Shown one piece after another: positions 3,536 through 53,798 of a stretch of 60,042 nucleotides of DNA. The DNA lies in contig JAFXVJ010000034.1 of assembly GCA_017524615.1 (NCBI GenBank), forward strand, positions 1 through 60,042, given 5' to 3'. The position numbers and the translations under genes were made by a program. Source of the DNA: Clostridia bacterium (lineage in GTDB: Bacteria; Bacillota; Clostridia; Christensenellales; Aristaeellaceae). The number at the start of each line of letters is the position of its first letter. Positions within the stretch are counted from its first letter, which is position 1. The notes beneath the pieces were generated by a model, which had not been told where the DNA came from, made no database searches, and was given only the letters and a program-made list of their open reading frames with translations.

Positions 3536-4417
3536 TTATGCCAAGGCGTCTTCCTTGCTGTTCTTTGCCAGAAGCCAGGCAACCAGGAAGCCTGCCGCAA
3601 AGGTGACCACGCTGATGAGCACCAGCCCAAGGCCCACGCCGTGCATATCGGTCTGCATCAGCAGGGAAATGGGGGACGCCACCACCAGGCCCATCACGCC
3701 GCAGTAGGTGTGGGTGGGGTACTTGTGGGTCAGCCATTCGATCAGCTTGGCCACGCCGAAAATGCCCAGCACGATGCCCACGGCAAAGGGAAGCAGCATC
3801 AGCAGCGGCTGGCCCAGCGAGGAAAACTCAAAATGCACCAGGCCGTGGCCCACGGTTTTCAGCGCGCCGGTGACAGCCTTGTAATAGCCCAGCAGCATCA
3901 GCACCAGGCTGCCGGACACGCCGGGGATGATCATGGTGGCGGAGGCGATCATGCCCAGGACCACCATCAGCAGCAAACGGCCGAAATTCATGTCGATGGT
4001 ATCGGCATTGGCGATGGTGCCCCTGTTTTTGGCGCCCAGCCAGATGATCAGGGCGAAAAACAGCACGAAGACCACCGCGCAGCTGTCGGTCACCTTTTTC
4101 TTGTCAATTTTCTTCACCAGCGGCCCCAGGCCCCCCAGGATCAGGCCGATAAAGAGGGTGTTTGTAGGCAGAAGATAATTCTCCAGCCCCCAGGTGATCA
4201 GGCTGGCCAGGGCCAGAATGCCGATGAGCATGCCGATGGCGTAGGGCAGCAGGGTTTTGATGCTTTTCCAGAATTCCTTGAACAGGTGGGTGATGCAGTG
4301 GATCAGCGTATCGTAGATGCCCATGCTCACCATCATGGTGCCGCCCGACACCCCGGGAATGATGTTGGCCACGCCGATGACCGCGCCGCGCAGGATTTGA
4401 TTCAAAAGGTTTTTCAT
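3536..4417 (-). CDS. DUF368 polyprenyl-phosphate transporter family membrane protein (PopT-like)
   Basis: This 293-residue polytopic membrane protein is predicted to have about eight to ten hydrophobic helices. It carries the two-fold repeat signature of DUF368: PGVSGG at residues 21-26 and PGVSGS at 165-170, each in a re-entrant-type hydrophobic segment. Members of this family have been linked to returning undecaprenyl phosphate across the cytoplasmic membrane. It is the last gene of a three-gene minus-strand operon, 33 bases after the ligase-ACP-oxoamine synthase fusion. That position raises the possibility that it moves or supports a lipid made by that enzyme rather than serving only cell-wall lipid recycling; this is inference. 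The start ATG at 4417 has GGAAAGGAA upstream. Confidence 0.85.
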   Translation of the reverse strand: MKNLLNQILRGAVIGVANIIPGVSGGTMMVSMGIYDTLIHCITHLFKEFWKSIKTLLPYAIGMLIGILALASLITWGLENYLLPTNTLFIGLILGGLGPLVKKIDKKKVTDSCAVVFVLFFALIIWLGAKNRGTIANADTIDMNFGRLLLMVVLGMIASATMIIPGVSGSLVLMLLGYYKAVTGALKTVGHGLVHFEFSSLGQPLLMLLPFAVGIVLGIFGVAKLIEWLTHKYPTHTYCGVMGLVVASPISLLMQTDMHGVGLGLVLISVVTFAAGFLVAWLLAKNSKEDALA

Positions 4418-4450
4418 GCGTCCAGATTCCTTTCCGTTATATCCTATGCG

Positions 4451-7400
4451 TCAGGAGGGCAGTTGAATGCCGGCTTCCTTGGCGCATTCCTGCAATTTGT
4501 CCAGGGCCTCCACGATCTCCTCGGGCTTGTGCTCGCTGATCACGCAGAAGCGCAGGCGGGCCTTGTTCTTCGGCACGGCGGGGTACACGGCCGGCGGCAC
4601 GATGACGCCCTTTTTGCGCAGGCGGTTGCTCAGCTCCCAGGCATCCTCGTCCTTGCCCACCAGGATGGGCAATATGGCCGTTTCCCCGGCCAGGCAGGTG
4701 TTGAAATGCCGCTTGTGGGCCTCATCCATGAAGCACTTGATGTTGCGGCGCATGCGTTCCATGATGCTGGGGTCGCTGCGCAGCAGCCGGATGGCGGCCA
4801 GGCTGGCGGCGGCCAGGGGCGGGGAAATGCCCACGGAGAACACAAAGCCCGGCAGGTTATAGCGCATATAGTCGATGATGGCGTGGCTGCCGGCCAGGTA
4901 TCCGCCGCAGGTACCCAGACCCTTGGACAGCGTGCCGTACTTGATGTCGATATCGTCCGGGGCCAGGCCGAAGTATTCGTCCACACCGCCGCCGGTCTTG
5001 CCGATGACGCAGGCGGAATGGGCCTCATCCACCATCAGGAAGCAGCCGTACTTCTTTTTCAGCTTCACGAATTCGGGCACCGGCGCGATGTCGCCGTCCA
5101 TGGAATACGCGCCCTCGATCACGATCAGCACCTTGGCGAATTTGTGGCGCTGATTGCGCAGGATGCTGTCCAGCGCGTTCACATCGTTGTGGGGGAAGGG
5201 CTTGGCGGTGGCCTGAGAAAGGCGGCAGCCCTGCTCGATGGAATTGTGGGCGATGGCGTCGTACACGATCAGGTCGCCCTTGCCGCAGAAGTTGCCCACG
5301 CAGGTGACGTTGGTGGAGTGGCCGCCCACCAGCACCAGGGCGGTTTCGGTGTGCTTCCAGTCGGCGATTTCCGCTTCCAGCTCCTTATGCAGCGTTTTTT
5401 CGCCCGCCAGCAGGCGGCTGCCGGAGGCGGAGGTGCCATACTTGTCGATGGCGGCCTTGGCGGCGTCCATGGTTTCCTTGCGGCCGCTCATGCCCACATA
5501 GTTGTAGGAGCCGAAATCCAGCATCCACTGGTTATCCACAAAGCTCTTGTCCAGCAGCGGGGAATCATGGGCGACAAAGTAGGGGTTTTCCTGGCCGGAG
5601 GCGGTCAGGGATTCCAGGCGCTTCTGGAACGCCTGATACTCGGGGGAATCCTCGAACCGGGTGATGGGGGTCACCGGCTCCTGGTTTTCCGGAATGGCGT
5701 TTTCATAGGCCACATTGCCCCGCACCCGGGCGTACAGCAGGGCGGACAGATCATTCACCGTGGTGCACTTGCCGTATTCCTCGGTGGGGATCAGCACATT
5801 GAACTGCTCCTCGATTTTGAGGCTCATGCCCAGCACCTGCAGGCTGTCGCCGCCCAATTCATCGATAAAGTGGGCGTCATCCTTGATTTGATCGGCGGGG
5901 ATATCCAGGGTTTCGGCGTACACCCGGCGCACCTTCTGCTTGATTTCCTCCATTTGCAGGTCGGAGGGAGTGTTTTCCTGCTGGATCAGGGGCTTGCTTT
6001 CGCTGGCCTGCTCATCCTTGCGGTTGAAATCAATATCCCGGTAGGCCAGCTTCTTTTCCTCGATTTCCTTTTTCAGCGCCAGCCGCTTGATCTTGATGCC
6101 TCCGGCGGTCTGGAACTTTTCCGGAGTGGCCAGTACGCGGCTGACCCGCTTGAGGGCGGGCAGGGTGCTGTTGATGCGGCGCACCTGGCCCATCATGTCG
6201 GCGATGTAGGCGTCGTCCCGGAAATGCTGGCCTACATTGATTACCAGGGTGATATCCTCATAATCCACCACGCCCTTTTTCCGGCCGGACAGATGGGGAT
6301 GGGGAATGTGGCTCAGCAGGCCTTTTTCTTCTTTCTCTTCCTTGCCCCGGGCCTTCACGCCCAGCACGCAGAACTGCTCCACGCCCTCCAGGGCGCCGAA
6401 AGCGTCCTCGATTTCATCGGGGTACACGTTTTCGCCGGATTCGTTGATGATCACGTCCTTGGCCCGGCCCTCCACGTACATGCGGCTGCCTTTTTCCAGC
6501 CGCACCACGTCGCCCGTGCGGAACCAGCCCTCGTCGTCCAGGCTGGGGGGCAGCAATTTGCCCTCCACCAGGCGCCCGGTGTGGATGGTGTTACCCCGGA
6601 TATACATTTCGCCGCGGTTGCTCTTTTCCCCGTCGCTCTGCACCCGGTATTCCGCGCTGGAAAGGGGCCGGCCCACGGAGCCGGAGGTGCGGGTGATGAC
6701 GTTCATGTTGGTTTCCACCGAGGTGATGCCCGTTTCCGTCATGCCAAAACCGGACACCGTGAAATAGCCCAGGGCGCTCAGGGTGCGCATATGCTCTTTG
6801 GGGGTATGGCTGCCGCCCAAAATGATGCAGCGCACGTCAGGCCCCAGAATCTGGCTGACCACGGATTTGAACAGCACGTTCCGGGCAAAATCCAGCCCAA
6901 AGCCGGGGGCGACGCTCTGCAGCGCCAGGGAAATGCCGCGCAGGGTCTTGAACGCCGCGCGCTTGAACCGCTTTTCCTTGGCCACTTTTTTATTCAGCGC
7001 CACGCACAGGTTATTGGCCAGCAGCGGCACCGCCATCAGGTGGGTGATTTTGAAGCGCTGGGCCGTTTCCTGGATGCATTTGGGGCTGCGGTCATGGAGA
7101 TACACCGTTTCGTAGCCCAGGAAATGGATCCATTGCAGGCACACCATGAAGCCGAAAATGTGATGATAGGGCAGGAACGCCAGGCTCCGCCGGGGCTCGT
7201 CGCAGATGATGCGCCGGTTGGCCTTGTAGAGCATTTCCGCATTGAGCACCTGGCTGCACACCGCCGCTTCGTCATACACAAATACACGGCTGGTGTCGGT
7301 GGTGCCGGAGGTGCACAGGGCCACCTGACGGCCAAACTGGGGCTTGAAATGCGCGGAGGGCTTGGCCTCCCCCAATTGCTTCACAGTGAACTGCCTGACG

Positions 7401-7792
7401 TCCGGCAGATTGCGGGGGGCGCGGCTGATCAGGGCCACCGCTCCCGCCTGACGCAGGATGTAGGCCGTCATGTCGTCATTCAGGGTGAAATCCATCAGCA
7501 CCGCGTTATAGCCCGCGGCCATGACGCCCCAGAACAGATAAAACCATTCGGGGCAAGTGTCGGCCTGAATGCCCACGAAGCTGCCCTGCCTGTTTTCGCC
7601 GATGGCGGCGCGCAGCATCGCGGCGCAGGCAAAGGTGCGCTCTTTATATTCTCCGTAGGTGATGGCTTTTTCTTCGTCGCCGTCCAGATACCGGGCGGCC
7701 ACCTTATCGCCATCGGCGCAAAGAATGCTGAACAGGTTTTGCAGCGTCATGTTTTCCCGCAATTGATTGCTGCGGGCCAGCACCTCGCTCAT
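4451..7792 (-). CDS. Trifunctional fusion: acyl-activating AMP ligase - acyl carrier protein - alpha-oxoamine synthase (serine palmitoyltransferase-like)
   Basis: This 1113-residue cytoplasmic protein joins three modules. Residues 1-590 are a class I adenylate-forming domain with TSGTT (161-165), FGMTETG (349-355), TGD (426-428), GRAKDVI and a candidate catalytic lysine K567. Residues 615-700 are an acyl carrier domain with the phosphopantetheine site GGDSL at S650. Residues 715-1110 are a PLP-dependent alpha-oxoamine synthase with HNS (849-851), DEAH (922-925) and the Schiff-base lysine K957 in GTLSKGLG. The predicted reaction activates a fatty acid, loads it on the ACP, then condenses it with an amino acid with loss of CO2, giving a long-chain alpha-amino ketone as in sphingoid-base synthesis. 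The start at 7792 has GAGAAGG seven bases upstream. A BioF-like role is possible, but no biotin gene is nearby. Acyl chain and amino acid are unknown. Confidence 0.85.
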   Translation of the reverse strand: MSEVLARSNQLRENMTLQNLFSILCADGDKVAARYLDGDEEKAITYGEYKERTFACAAMLRAAIGENRQGSFVGIQADTCPEWFYLFWGVMAAGYNAVLMDFTLNDDMTAYILRQAGAVALISRAPRNLPDVRQFTVKQLGEAKPSAHFKPQFGRQVALCTSGTTDTSRVFVYDEAAVCSQVLNAEMLYKANRRIICDEPRRSLAFLPYHHIFGFMVCLQWIHFLGYETVYLHDRSPKCIQETAQRFKITHLMAVPLLANNLCVALNKKVAKEKRFKRAAFKTLRGISLALQSVAPGFGLDFARNVLFKSVVSQILGPDVRCIILGGSHTPKEHMRTLSALGYFTVSGFGMTETGITSVETNMNVITRTSGSVGRPLSSAEYRVQSDGEKSNRGEMYIRGNTIHTGRLVEGKLLPPSLDDEGWFRTGDVVRLEKGSRMYVEGRAKDVIINESGENVYPDEIEDAFGALEGVEQFCVLGVKARGKEEKEEKGLLSHIPHPHLSGRKKGVVDYEDITLVINVGQHFRDDAYIADMMGQVRRINSTLPALKRVSRVLATPEKFQTAGGIKIKRLALKKEIEEKKLAYRDIDFNRKDEQASESKPLIQQENTPSDLQMEEIKQKVRRVYAETLDIPADQIKDDAHFIDELGGDSLQVLGMSLKIEEQFNVLIPTEEYGKCTTVNDLSALLYARVRGNVAYENAIPENQEPVTPITRFEDSPEYQAFQKRLESLTASGQENPYFVAHDSPLLDKSFVDNQWMLDFGSYNYVGMSGRKETMDAAKAAIDKYGTSASGSRLLAGEKTLHKELEAEIADWKHTETALVLVGGHSTNVTCVGNFCGKGDLIVYDAIAHNSIEQGCRLSQATAKPFPHNDVNALDSILRNQRHKFAKVLIVIEGAYSMDGDIAPVPEFVKLKKKYGCFLMVDEAHSACVIGKTGGGVDEYFGLAPDDIDIKYGTLSKGLGTCGGYLAGSHAIIDYMRYNLPGFVFSVGISPPLAAASLAAIRLLRSDPSIMERMRRNIKCFMDEAHKRHFNTCLAGETAILPILVGKDEDAWELSNRLRKKGVIVPPAVYPAVPKNKARLRFCVISEHKPEEIVEALDKLQECAKEAGIQLPS

Positions 7793-7873
7793 CGCTGTAC
7801 CTTCTCTCTTTTCTGAATGATCCCCCGGGCATTGTCCGCCCGGCACGCGCCACGGCTGTGCCGCGGCCCCGTC

Positions 7874-8695
7874 TCATCGCACGTTTTTCCGGTAATAGGA
7901 GCCAATGATCTTTTCAAACAGGCGGTTGGGCAGCAAATCATGCAGGATGACGGCAACATGCTGATCCGGCTTGGCGATGCGCAGCCGCCGGGGCAAATGC
8001 TTCTTCTTCAGGGTGCGGGCGATTTTTTCGCCCAGTCGGTCCGGGTCGCTGCCGTTATCCTCATCGTGGGCAATCACCCGGGTGCCCAGGTCAAACGCCG
8101 TCTTGTAAGGGGAATCGTCGGTGATTCCCTTCGAATGGCCCCGGTAGGCCCGGGAGCCGCTGCGATGGTCCCCCGGCTCCACCAGCATGATTTCGATGCC
8201 GAAGGGCTTGACTTCCAGCGCCAGGCATTCCGAGTAGCCCTCAACGGCGTGCTTGCTGGCGGTATAGGCCCCCTCAAAGGGAATGCCCAGCAGCCCGTTG
8301 ATGGATGAGAAATTCACGATCCGTCCATGGCCTTTTTCCCGCATCAGCGGCATGACCCGGGAGATCATGGCCGCCTGGCCGAAAAAATTCGTCTCCATCA
8401 CCTGGCGCAATTCGCTCAGCGGATAGCTTTCACAGGCGCCCAGGATCAGCATGCCTGCGCAGTTCACCAGGATATCCGGCGGCCCGGCAAAGGCAGACGC
8501 TTCGCGGACAAAAGCGTCCATGCTGTCCGCATCCGTCACGTCCAGCGGCAGGCAATGGCAGCCCTCCGCCTGCTTCCCTTTTCCAAAGGATCGGGCACCG
8601 GCCACCACCTGAAATCCGTTCCGCGCCAGAGCCTGGGCCGTGTGCAGTCCCAGCCCGCTGGACGCGCCGGTGATCCATACCACCTGATCCGCCAT
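7874..8695 (-). CDS. Short-chain dehydrogenase/reductase (candidate ketosphinganine-type reductase)
   Basis: This 273-residue classical SDR has the cofactor motif TGASSGLG (9-16), NCAG (78-81) and the catalytic residues S131, Y144 and K148 (YTASK). Its length and the basic C-terminal region (LKKKHLPRRLR) resemble SDRs acting on lipid substrates such as 3-ketodihydrosphingosine reductase, but that match is only by pattern. It is the first gene of the operon, 81 bases upstream of the ligase-ACP-oxoamine synthase fusion, and so is the natural candidate to reduce the amino ketone to an amino alcohol. The ATG at 8695 is chosen for its GGGGAGGGG ribosome site; an upstream ATG at 8716 lies before that site. 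Confidence 0.8.
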   Translation of the reverse strand: MADQVVWITGASSGLGLHTAQALARNGFQVVAGARSFGKGKQAEGCHCLPLDVTDADSMDAFVREASAFAGPPDILVNCAGMLILGACESYPLSELRQVMETNFFGQAAMISRVMPLMREKGHGRIVNFSSINGLLGIPFEGAYTASKHAVEGYSECLALEVKPFGIEIMLVEPGDHRSGSRAYRGHSKGITDDSPYKTAFDLGTRVIAHDEDNGSDPDRLGEKIARTLKKKHLPRRLRIAKPDQHVAVILHDLLPNRLFEKIIGSYYRKNVR

Positions 8696-8779
8696 GGCAG
8701 CCCCTCCCCTTCGCACGCCTGTCAGTGTTCCGGTCGAAGATATCCGCCCGGATGTAAAAATCCGAAGGATATCCTATAC

Positions 8780-8808
8780 ATTATACGTCATTTTATGATA
8801 TAATGCAA
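8780..8808 (-). promoter_or_regulatory. Sigma-A promoter of the SDR / fusion / DUF368 operon
   Basis: On the minus strand TTGCAT (8808-8803), a 17-base spacer and TATAAT (8785-8780) form a near-consensus promoter about 85 bases upstream of the SDR start. A plus-strand TATAAT at 8799-8804 overlaps it and may serve the methyltransferase gene, though its -35 is poor. Confidence 0.65.
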
Positions 8809-8944
8809 ATGCCGCACACCAAAAAAACAGTAAGATGCGGAAAAGTGAGAAAAAACTGAGAAAAAACGGCAGCTGTTCCGCAAAGACTGAACCATTGCAA
8901 AGGCAATGAAAATGTGACGCGTTTCACAGGGAAGGATACAGCCT

Positions 8945-52163: not shown

Positions 52164-53798
52164 ATGCCCATTACCGATCTGCTGGAAAGAAACAGCAAGC
52201 TGTACGGAGATGAAGTGGCGCTGGTGGAGATGAACCCGGAGATTCAGGAGGAGCCGCGGGTGACCTGGCGGGAGTATGAACTGATCCAGCCCACCACCTC
52301 CACCCCCTACCGCCGGGAAATCACCTGGAGCGTATTTGACGAAAAAGCCAACCGCGTAGCCAATCTGCTCAGGCAGAGGGGGATCCGCAAGGGCCAGAAA
52401 GTAGCCATTCTGCTCATGAACTGCCTGGAGTGGCTGCCGATATATTTTGGCATCCTGAAAACGGGGGCCATCGCCGTGCCGCTGAATTTCCGCTACACGG
52501 CGGGAGAAATCGAATACTGTCTGCGCCTGGCGGATGCGGACGTGCTGTTCTTCGGGCCGGAATTCATCGGCCGGGTGGAGGATATCGTGCCCAAAATCAG
52601 CCGGGAAAAGATCCTGTTCTTCGTGGGGGACAGCAAGCCCTCCTTCGCGGAAAGCTACAGCGAGGCCGTGGCCAACTGCTCCTCCGCGGCGCCCAAGGTG
52701 CTCATTGAGGATACCGACGAGGCGGCCATCTATTATTCCTCCGGCACCACCGGCTTCCCCAAGGCCATTTTGCTGGATCATACCGCCCTTTTGCAGTCCG
52801 CCCGAATGGAAGCCATGCACCATGAAACCACCCACAGCGACGTGTTCCTGTGCATCCCGCCCCTGTACCACACCGGCGCGAAAATGCACTGGTTCGGCTC
52901 CCTGTTCACCGGCAGCCGGGCCGTGATCCTCAAGGGCAACACCCCCAAGGCCATCCTGGACGCGGTGAGCTGGGAGGAATGCACCATCGTGTGGCTGCTG
53001 GTGCCCTGGGCCCAGGATATCCTGGCCGCCATCGAACGGGGAGACGTGAAGCTGGAGGATTACCGCCTGTCCCAGTGGCGGCTGATGCATATCGGCGCCC
53101 AGCCCGTGCCCCCCTCCCTGATCCGGCACTGGCTGCAATACTTTCCTCATCATAAATACGACACCAACTACGGCCTCAGCGAATCCACCGGCCCCGGCTG
53201 CGTGCACCTGGGCATGGACCATGTGGACAAGGTGGGCGCCATCGGCGTGCCGGGCTTCGGCTGGAAATGCAAAATCGTGGACGAGCAGGATCAGCCGGTG
53301 CAGCAGGGCGAGGTGGGCGAACTGTGCGTCCGGGGCCCCGGCGTCATGAAATGCTATTATCACGATCCCAAGGCCACTGCGGATGTGCTGAAGGATGGCT
53401 GGCTGCACACCGGCGATATGGCCAAGCAGGACGCGGACGGCTTCATTTTCCTGGTGGATCGCAAGAAAGACGTGATCATTACCGGCGGCGAAAACCTGTA
53501 CCCCGTCCAGATCGAGGATTTCCTGGCCGCCCATCCCAAGATCCACGATGTGGCCGTTATCGGCCTGCCCGATCAGCGGCTGGGCGAAATCGCCGCCGCC
53601 ATCATCCAGGTCAAGGAGGGCATGGAACTGACCGAGGACGAGGTCAACCGCTTCTGCCTGGACCTGCCCCGGTACAAGCGCCCCCGGAAGATCATTTTCG
53701 CCAAGGTGCCCCGCAATCCCACCGGCAAAATCGAAAAGCCCAAGCTGCGCCAGCAGTACTGCGGCGTGCGTCTGGTGGAAGCCCAGAACAACAGCTGA
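52164..53798 (+). CDS. Class I adenylate-forming ligase (acyl-CoA synthetase)
   Basis: This 544-residue enzyme has the standard acyl-CoA synthetase layout: YYSSGTTGFPK (about residues 192-202), YGLSESTG, TGD and DRKKDVIITGGENLYPVQIE. The C-terminal catalytic lysine is in NPTGKIEK. It activates an unidentified carboxylic acid with ATP and CoA. The N-terminal 60 residues contain a slightly unusual insert (TWREYELIQPTTSTPYRREITW). It diverges from the TrpR-like / ior operon and is alone on its strand, so an aromatic or amino-acid-derived acid is possible. ATG at 52164 is chosen because an ATG at 52152 lies too close to the AAAGGA ribosome site. Confidence 0.85.
   Translation: MPITDLLERNSKLYGDEVALVEMNPEIQEEPRVTWREYELIQPTTSTPYRREITWSVFDEKANRVANLLRQRGIRKGQKVAILLMNCLEWLPIYFGILKTGAIAVPLNFRYTAGEIEYCLRLADADVLFFGPEFIGRVEDIVPKISREKILFFVGDSKPSFAESYSEAVANCSSAAPKVLIEDTDEAAIYYSSGTTGFPKAILLDHTALLQSARMEAMHHETTHSDVFLCIPPLYHTGAKMHWFGSLFTGSRAVILKGNTPKAILDAVSWEECTIVWLLVPWAQDILAAIERGDVKLEDYRLSQWRLMHIGAQPVPPSLIRHWLQYFPHHKYDTNYGLSESTGPGCVHLGMDHVDKVGAIGVPGFGWKCKIVDEQDQPVQQGEVGELCVRGPGVMKCYYHDPKATADVLKDGWLHTGDMAKQDADGFIFLVDRKKDVIITGGENLYPVQIEDFLAAHPKIHDVAVIGLPDQRLGEIAAAIIQVKEGMELTEDEVNRFCLDLPRYKRPRKIIFAKVPRNPTGKIEKPKLRQQYCGVRLVEAQNNS

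Follow-up and report, generated by a model that had tools for sequence, protein, structure and literature searches.

In a stretch of 60,042 nt from Clostridia bacterium (assembly GCA_017524615.1, contig JAFXVJ010000034.1; this whole stretch is called the window below) we found a minus-strand gene (4451..7792, open reading frame from the ATG at 7792) that encodes an acyl-activating ligase, an acyl carrier protein (ACP) domain and a pyridoxal phosphate (PLP)-dependent alpha-oxoamine synthase (AOS) in one protein of 1113 aa. This fused protein is probably a self-contained, SgaB-like sphingoid-base synthase that does without a polyketide synthase (PKS) and is partnered by a short-chain dehydrogenase/reductase (SDR) of the 3-ketodihydrosphingosine reductase (KDSR) kind. 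A preliminary description of the window had read the locus in a similar way; its observation is confirmed and its interpretation as a whole is partly supported, the idea of a sphingoid-base-like synthase on one chain with its own reductase being favored by the predicted clade of the AOS domain and the linkage to the SDR. It had also suggested an undescribed route to a long-chain amino alcohol. A literature search at title and abstract level, thin on subscription journals, yielded no description of a ligase-ACP-AOS fusion, but the chemistry has a precedent from 2025 in PfSgaAB (PMC12134224); what is new is the PKS-free fusion on a single polypeptide.

A ligase, an acyl carrier and an oxoamine synthase on one polypeptide

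The open reading frame, the Pfam domains and the sequence motifs agree on the three-part architecture that had been noted before. All parts are encoded on the minus strand. The AMP-forming ligase domain covers residues 28–404 (6581..7711; AMP-binding PF00501, E 8.5e-42), and its C-terminal subdomain, to about residue 610, gave no match in the Pfam scan. The carrier domain follows at residues 619–686 (5735..5938; PP-binding PF00550, E 5e-13), where the serine of a GGDSL motif, S650, marks the phosphopantetheine site. Residues 709–745 (5558..5668) form an N-terminal extension of the AOS with the pattern RFEDSPEY...NPYF...H, which is also found in PKS-coupled AOS, and the PLP-dependent AOS itself occupies residues 757–1100 (4493..5524; Aminotran_1_2 PF00155, E 2e-47). 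The lysine of its TLSK motif, K957, is the PLP lysine as judged from the motif, and H849-N850-S851 constitute a clade signature.

The preliminary description had proposed an architecture search, and this search returned 41 distinct fused sequences, 41–100% identical to the window protein, which have the domain order and the catalytic motifs in common: the ligase P-loop CTSG(T/S)TxxSR (residues 160–169 in the window protein), SGEN(V/I)YP, the carrier DSL and the AOS GTLSK were each present in 41/41 sequences. The P-loop lacks the Pro-Lys pair of the usual consensus. Because 41 distinct sequences keep the same order and motifs, the ligase-ACP-AOS fusion is real and more than a product of chance.

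The Clostridia-like origin surmised earlier is borne out by the named relatives, 19 of 20 of which are titled as metagenome-assembled genomes of Clostridia, Clostridiales or Christensenellaceae, the twentieth being a weak alphaproteobacterial match. Five of these titles name a ruminant or the ruminant foregut and eight more are isolates of the rumen series RUG. We then surveyed a sample of 100 genomes from the GTDB family of the window, with its own assembly (G000, 82% complete) among them; 60 of these match at E 1e-60. The fused form is carried by 35 of the 100 (read from the match table and the fetched loci; a few are cut by contig ends), while 14 carry only a stand-alone AOS, 68–73% identical. 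The remaining matching genomes gave BioF-like matches or, in G036, a ligase fragment, and the others nothing. In a sample of the order 26/297 genomes match at E 1e-80, with fused proteins in three further families (f103, f3 and f89; the f89 copy ends at a contig edge). Among the matches listed for a class sample of 391 genomes, with the two best candidates per genome scored, there was no other complete fusion. A phylum sample of 398 genomes contained two of another class (G783 and G1077) in which ACP and AOS share one protein of roughly 525 residues; a related ligase was found in 0/2 of these. Their ACP-AOS gene lies directly 3′ of a CDP-alcohol phosphatidyltransferase gene (L178:6491-9107 and L179:6959-9579), which is a lipid context; an ArsR-family regulator follows the ACP-AOS gene (checked in L178). 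Two fusions in the collection are degenerate or look so (L180:7419-10610 and L190:7041-10232, genomes G626 and G685, respectively), and judging from their residues their AOS part may be a pseudo-enzyme or may have taken on a new function.

The AOS domain groups with PKS-coupled enzymes

In comparisons with NCBIfam models the AOS domain scored highest against TIGR00858 (bioF), with 342 bits and a cut-off of 426 that was not reached. The equivalogs for serine palmitoyltransferase (SPT) gave 297 bits (NF047600, SPT-CFB; cut-off 640), 278 bits (NF047599; cut-off 500) and 230 bits (NF047603; cut-off 670), and glycine C-acetyltransferase gave 293 bits (cut-off 460). None of these models claims the domain.

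In phylogenetic trees, from all of which near-identical relatives had been dropped, the fused family and the PKS-coupled AOS form one clade with a support of 100/100 (100/98 in two other trees). Spt, BioF, Kbl and HemA had been named for comparison in the preliminary description. The careful trees were also built without four outlying AOS rows (Burkholderia, Streptomyces 523, B. ovatus and Thioclava) and without several class-level BioF-like rows; from the tree that includes E. coli B Spt the HemA, plant LCB2 and degenerate G626 rows were dropped as well. Constrained placement as BioF/Kbl was rejected in the approximately unbiased (AU) test (p 2.9e-11), and placement as a canonical SPT was rejected too (p 3.2e-5, and 2.1e-5 once the E. 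coli B enzyme had been included). Plant LCB2 sits on a long branch and moves between trees, so that its placement is unsure (AU p 0.219). In a quick tree the stand-alone AOS are nested among the fused ones. The careful trees do not fix which of the two forms is older, and constraining either the fused rows (AU p 0.289) or the stand-alone rows (p 0.414) to a single clade was not rejected.

The signature residues follow the same division. H-N-S occurs in 45/47 rows of the PKS-coupled clade, the exceptions being S. anthocyanicus (HDS) and the degenerate G626 (neither), and in 0/17 rows of SPT, BioF, Kbl, HemA, LCB2 and related enzymes, which read HAS or HSS. The N-terminal stretch RFEDxPEY...NPYF...H is a second mark of the clade. 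Further on, (S/T)(V/A)G is present in the clade rows except G626; the BioF-like row L107 shares the glycine, not the motif. Residue numbers for serine binding that we had presumed from the SPT structure 3a2b did not fit, and no claim is made from them. On the basis of trees and signatures, we assign the AOS domain to the PKS-coupled (SgaB/RkpG-type) clade, which is neither BioF/Kbl nor canonical SPT.

This assignment bears on two readings of the fusion. The first takes it for the biotin enzyme BioF equipped with its own pimeloyl loading. The bioF model is indeed the top single NCBIfam score, but it stays below its cut-off, the tree position is rejected, and the partner SDR resembles KdsR. An AOS within BioF and biotin genes conserved nearby had been named beforehand as the outcome that would speak against a sphingoid-base synthase; the five neighbouring proteins scanned in the window include no biotin gene, and we give the BioF reading almost no weight. 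The second reading, put forward in the preliminary description, sees a fused version of the canonical acyl-ACP synthetase, ACP and SPT of Caulobacter and E. coli B. The three activities are the same (PMC9386255; E. coli BL21 genes): as predicted for the fusion, the AOS receives its acyl group from an ACP of its own, which a ligase loads with the help of ATP. AasR, AcpR and Spt are three genes, however, and Spt belongs to another AOS clade. The ligase domain is not closely related to AasR of E. coli B either, with 30% identity over 114 residues only, as opposed to 34–39% over nearly the whole domain with stand-alone Clostridia ligases. A fusion of this canonical set is thus very improbable.

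A ligase and carrier apparently in place of a polyketide synthase

Outside the family the closest AOS came from the plasmid collection: it forms the C-terminal end of a Planktothrix PKS with the order ketosynthase, acyltransferase, dehydratase, enoylreductase, ketoreductase, ACP and AOS (KS-AT-DH-ER-KR-ACP-AOS; 47.6% identity). Six of the ten best plasmid places were fetched (Planktothrix, Paraburkholderia, Streptomyces anthocyanicus, Pseudomonas, Caballeronia and Shinella), and in 6/6 the AOS is part of a PKS, adjoins a PKS gene or is one gene away from it. A lower-ranked match, the Sinorhizobium AOS, is likewise PKS-linked. For Planktothrix, Pseudomonas, Sinorhizobium and S. anthocyanicus a Pfam check confirmed the PKS domains. 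Within the same class as the window, genome G464 carries a stand-alone SgaB-type AOS directly after a PKS of 2180 aa (L122:1572-9547). A more distant Streptomyces AOS (38.7%) has discrete ketosynthase, AMP-binding and carrier genes and no PKS-type pairing. On this plasmid, of Streptomyces sp. NBC_00523, SDR, AOS, ketosynthase, MaoC-type, AMP-binding and carrier genes are grouped (L133:7845-15104), i.e. the same kinds of parts as in the fusion on separate genes.

We searched seven carriers of the fused enzyme (G000, G094, G069, G030, G091, G736 and G066) for PS-DH, a PKS dehydratase marker domain, and found none in 7/7. The PKS-rich genome G464, used as a control, returned 19 matches, and B. 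subtilis was a hit in a set of 14 control genomes. Because no PS-DH domain was found in these carriers, the ligase and ACP appear to replace the PKS in the fused system. A supply of this kind has an established parallel in Rhodobacteria, where the parts are on separate genes and SPT prefers acyl-ACP that a ligase of its own provides (PMC9386255); the words fused, fusion, Firmicutes, multidomain and Clostridi- are absent from the text of that paper. The ligase domain is 28–38% identical to ligase-ACP didomains. Ligase-ACP proteins of 640–653 aa (G316, L123:4266-10802; G204, L124:658-6264) lie beside FakA and PlsC-type acyltransferase genes, which suggests a role in fatty-acid activation; these clusters are possibly an acyl-ACP entry route for outside fatty acids. 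The L123 cluster also has DegV and MFS_2 genes. The window itself encodes a second AMP-binding protein (52314-53570, plus strand) with a weak similarity of 26–29% identity to the ligase domain.

Two known systems of the same AOS clade can be compared. The first is RkpA, RkpG and RkpH of the rhizobial rkp-1 region (locus L142). This set, which has a PKS- or fatty acid synthase-type partner, shares its AOS clade and an adjacent SDR with the fused system; the Rkp parts differ in being separate genes in capsule loci, and two rkp-type SDRs that were tested do not score best to KdsR. In the Planktothrix agardhii plasmid PKS (WP_042158693.1) the ACP is directly followed by the AOS on one chain, as in the fusion, and a fatty acyl-AMP ligase gene is nearby, but a full PKS module stands before the ACP. 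This PKS-AOS gene lies on plasmid p3 (L132:103-17784) near the fatty acyl-AMP ligase and glycosyltransferases, and the region is a candidate cyanobacterial glyco-sphingolipid-like cluster by its gene content.

The best characterized counterpart is that of P. fluorescens MYb115, where the PKS SgaA and the AOS SgaB produce sphinganines and SgaC, a KDSR-like SDR, is proposed to reduce the ketone product of SgaB (PMC12134224). In both systems the AOS is, or would be, fed by an acyl group bound to a carrier, and an SDR is present, which in PfSga is KDSR-like and in the fused system has KdsR as its best match, below the cut-off. PfSga relies on an iterative type I PKS for chain building and encodes its AOS by a gene apart (PMC12134224), whereas the fused system has ligase and ACP, which would load a fatty acid, on the AOS chain and no PKS marker domain was found. 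The PfSga system has a 3-keto-sphinganine-type product, which for the fused system is proposed only (PMC12134224).

An SDR accompanies the fused gene

A gene for an SDR of 273 aa (7874..8695, minus strand) lies upstream of the fused gene on the same strand, with 81 nt between its end and the start codon of the fused gene. The protein contains the TGxxxGxG cofactor motif and YTASK, and its best match out of 210 NCBIfam families is 3-ketodihydrosphingosine reductase KdsR (228 bits, next 198). KdsR also ranks first for 2/3 other family SDRs. In 30/36 fetched loci with sufficient room, or 28/34 distinct ones, an SDR is located directly upstream of the fused gene on the same strand. The adjacency counts are based on tblastn, as a simple gene-picking survey was noisy from antisense frames and was not used for them; duplicate contigs were dropped (L083 = L050, L086 = L053), and L084 and L087, which are cut short, were left out. 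Across the 100 family genomes an SDR orthologue (identity ≥45%) occurs in 41/49 genomes with an AOS and 4/51 without, G036 with its ligase fragment and BioF-like match being counted among the latter. By form, it is present in 32/35 fused genomes and 9/14 stand-alone-AOS genomes, in which nine SDR and AOS are on different contigs. In a search of 16 further genomes, three of the same family gave an SDR match at 53–60%, 11 others at 29–36% and two none.

The downstream gene and the promoter

Downstream of the fused gene, and starting 33 nt after its stop codon, follows a gene for a DUF368 membrane protein (3536..4417, minus strand; assigned by Pfam family PF04018) that is like undecaprenyl-phosphate translocases. 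The order with the SDR before and DUF368 after the fused gene is as described earlier. The protein scores 161.5 bits against PopT (NF052563), the cut-off being 400. It was absent beside the fused gene in the other loci, 0/33 fetched loci with room and 0/32 distinct ones, and the adjacency in the window is probably local and incidental. The earlier suggestion of a lipid-type transporter of the pathway was dropped on these counts. In the 14 loci with a stand-alone AOS no gene family besides the AOS was seen in more than two, in a survey with noisy gene picking.

The three genes had further been placed behind one promoter. One promoter-like site on the minus strand, TTTGCA-18-TATAAT (8780..8809), is located upstream of the SDR, a weak match in 10/12 positions, and there is no minus-strand match between the three genes. 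A single promoter is only weakly supported, because the region has four such sites when both strands are counted and chance alone would give 1.6.

The neighbourhood also bears on the fate of the product. Instead of a membrane sphingolipid the lipid could be one that anchors or carries a surface polymer, as has been proposed for the products of rhizobial rkpAGHIJ: rkpA and rkpGHIJ are described as genes for making, modifying and transporting a lipophilic compound, possibly a carrier or anchor of the K-antigen (PMC3557214). Genes for capsule or polysaccharide export surround four of the related AOS genes, and the downstream gene in the window encodes a relative of polyprenyl-phosphate translocases. 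We regard this fate as unlikely, though not far-fetched, given that the translocase is not a conserved neighbour and that the SDR is the sole conserved neighbour seen at fused loci, where gene calling was noisy.

Proposed pathway and points that weigh against it

In the pathway that we propose, the ligase domain would adenylate a free fatty acid with ATP and move the acyl group onto the S650 phosphopantetheine of the ACP domain on the same chain, a transfer in cis. The AOS domain, with PLP on K957, would then join the acyl-ACP to an amino acid, most likely L-serine, with loss of CO2, giving a 3-keto-sphinganine-like amino ketone, and the upstream SDR would reduce the 3-keto group to the amino alcohol. 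In evolutionary terms an AOS of the SgaB/RkpG type may have swapped its iterative PKS partner for a ligase-ACP module. All four reactions, the transfer in cis, the use of serine, the chain length and the final lipid are inferred from sequences and analogy.

The amino acid had been called unpredictable. It can now be narrowed to serine as a leading guess, by analogy, because PfSgaB, the AOS of a PKS pair, is a proven serine-selective SPT: the purified enzyme condenses acyl-CoA with L-serine, and its preference for this amino acid against alanine and glycine is almost exclusive (PMC12134224). The signature residues shared by the window AOS and the PKS-coupled AOS point the same way. If the same machine used alanine or glycine, a 1-deoxy or 1-desoxymethyl long-chain base or an amino ketone would result. 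AOS enzymes vary in their amino acid, and no substrate-specific residue is proven in the fused AOS. BioF is a user of alanine, and its model gives the AOS a higher score (342 bits) than the SPT models do (at most 297), all below cut-off. Set against the serine preference of PfSgaB, we find alanine or glycine distinctly unlikely.

Several observations speak against a serine-using, SgaB-like synthase with a KDSR-like reductase and have to be set beside those that favor it. The link from SgaB to the clade is made through the PKS-AOS arrangement in Pseudomonas and the Burkholderia group, not through sequence, and is to this extent an analogy. The ligase-ACP part was found in 0/14 stand-alone-AOS genomes; members of the family can thus do without the fusion. 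The fused AOS of G626 has lost the PLP lysine (SLCG for TLSK) and H-N-S, and G685 looks like it, judged from the matching alignment. An AlphaFold model of the whole protein, built with 17 close sequences, was too poor to be used (predicted local distance difference test, pLDDT, 56.6; predicted template modelling score, pTM, 0.36). Regarding the reductase, the 228 bits of the SDR against KdsR (NF049977) do not reach the cut-off of 400, and in 1/3 relatives KdsR comes second to another SDR family. The SDR lies away from the fused gene in 6/34 distinct loci, and in G026 its frame has an in-frame stop. The Fisher p of 2.8e-15 for the co-occurrence of SDR and AOS is inflated by kinship, which the test ignores. 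In 11 genomes from other families of the order and from the phylum the SDR is only 29–36% identical, and in G491 and the PKS-AOS genome G464 there was no SDR match.

Possible meaning for the Clostridia lineage

A broader reading, which we put forward tentatively and hold with rather less conviction than the function of the fused protein, is that gut and rumen Clostridia may make true sphingolipids by a route that is not among the known ones, by means of a reductase and an SgaB-type AOS freed from its PKS. Three forms of acyl supply (ligase-ACP-AOS, ACP-AOS and AOS alone) would turn free fatty acids, including dietary and host ones, into long-chain bases. SPT genes are used as a marker for bacterial sphingolipid makers (PMC12134224). 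An SPT scan or a PKS-plus-AOS search as in that paper would be expected to miss the fused enzyme, because its AOS stays under the SPT cut-offs and no PKS lies beside it. If the proposal is true, the hand-off from carrier to AOS could be studied and engineered in a single compact protein of 1113 residues. A Clostridia lineage found in ruminants would then represent sphingolipid producers of a new class, and Gram-positive anaerobes would add a so far overlooked origin of microbial sphingoid bases in these animals.

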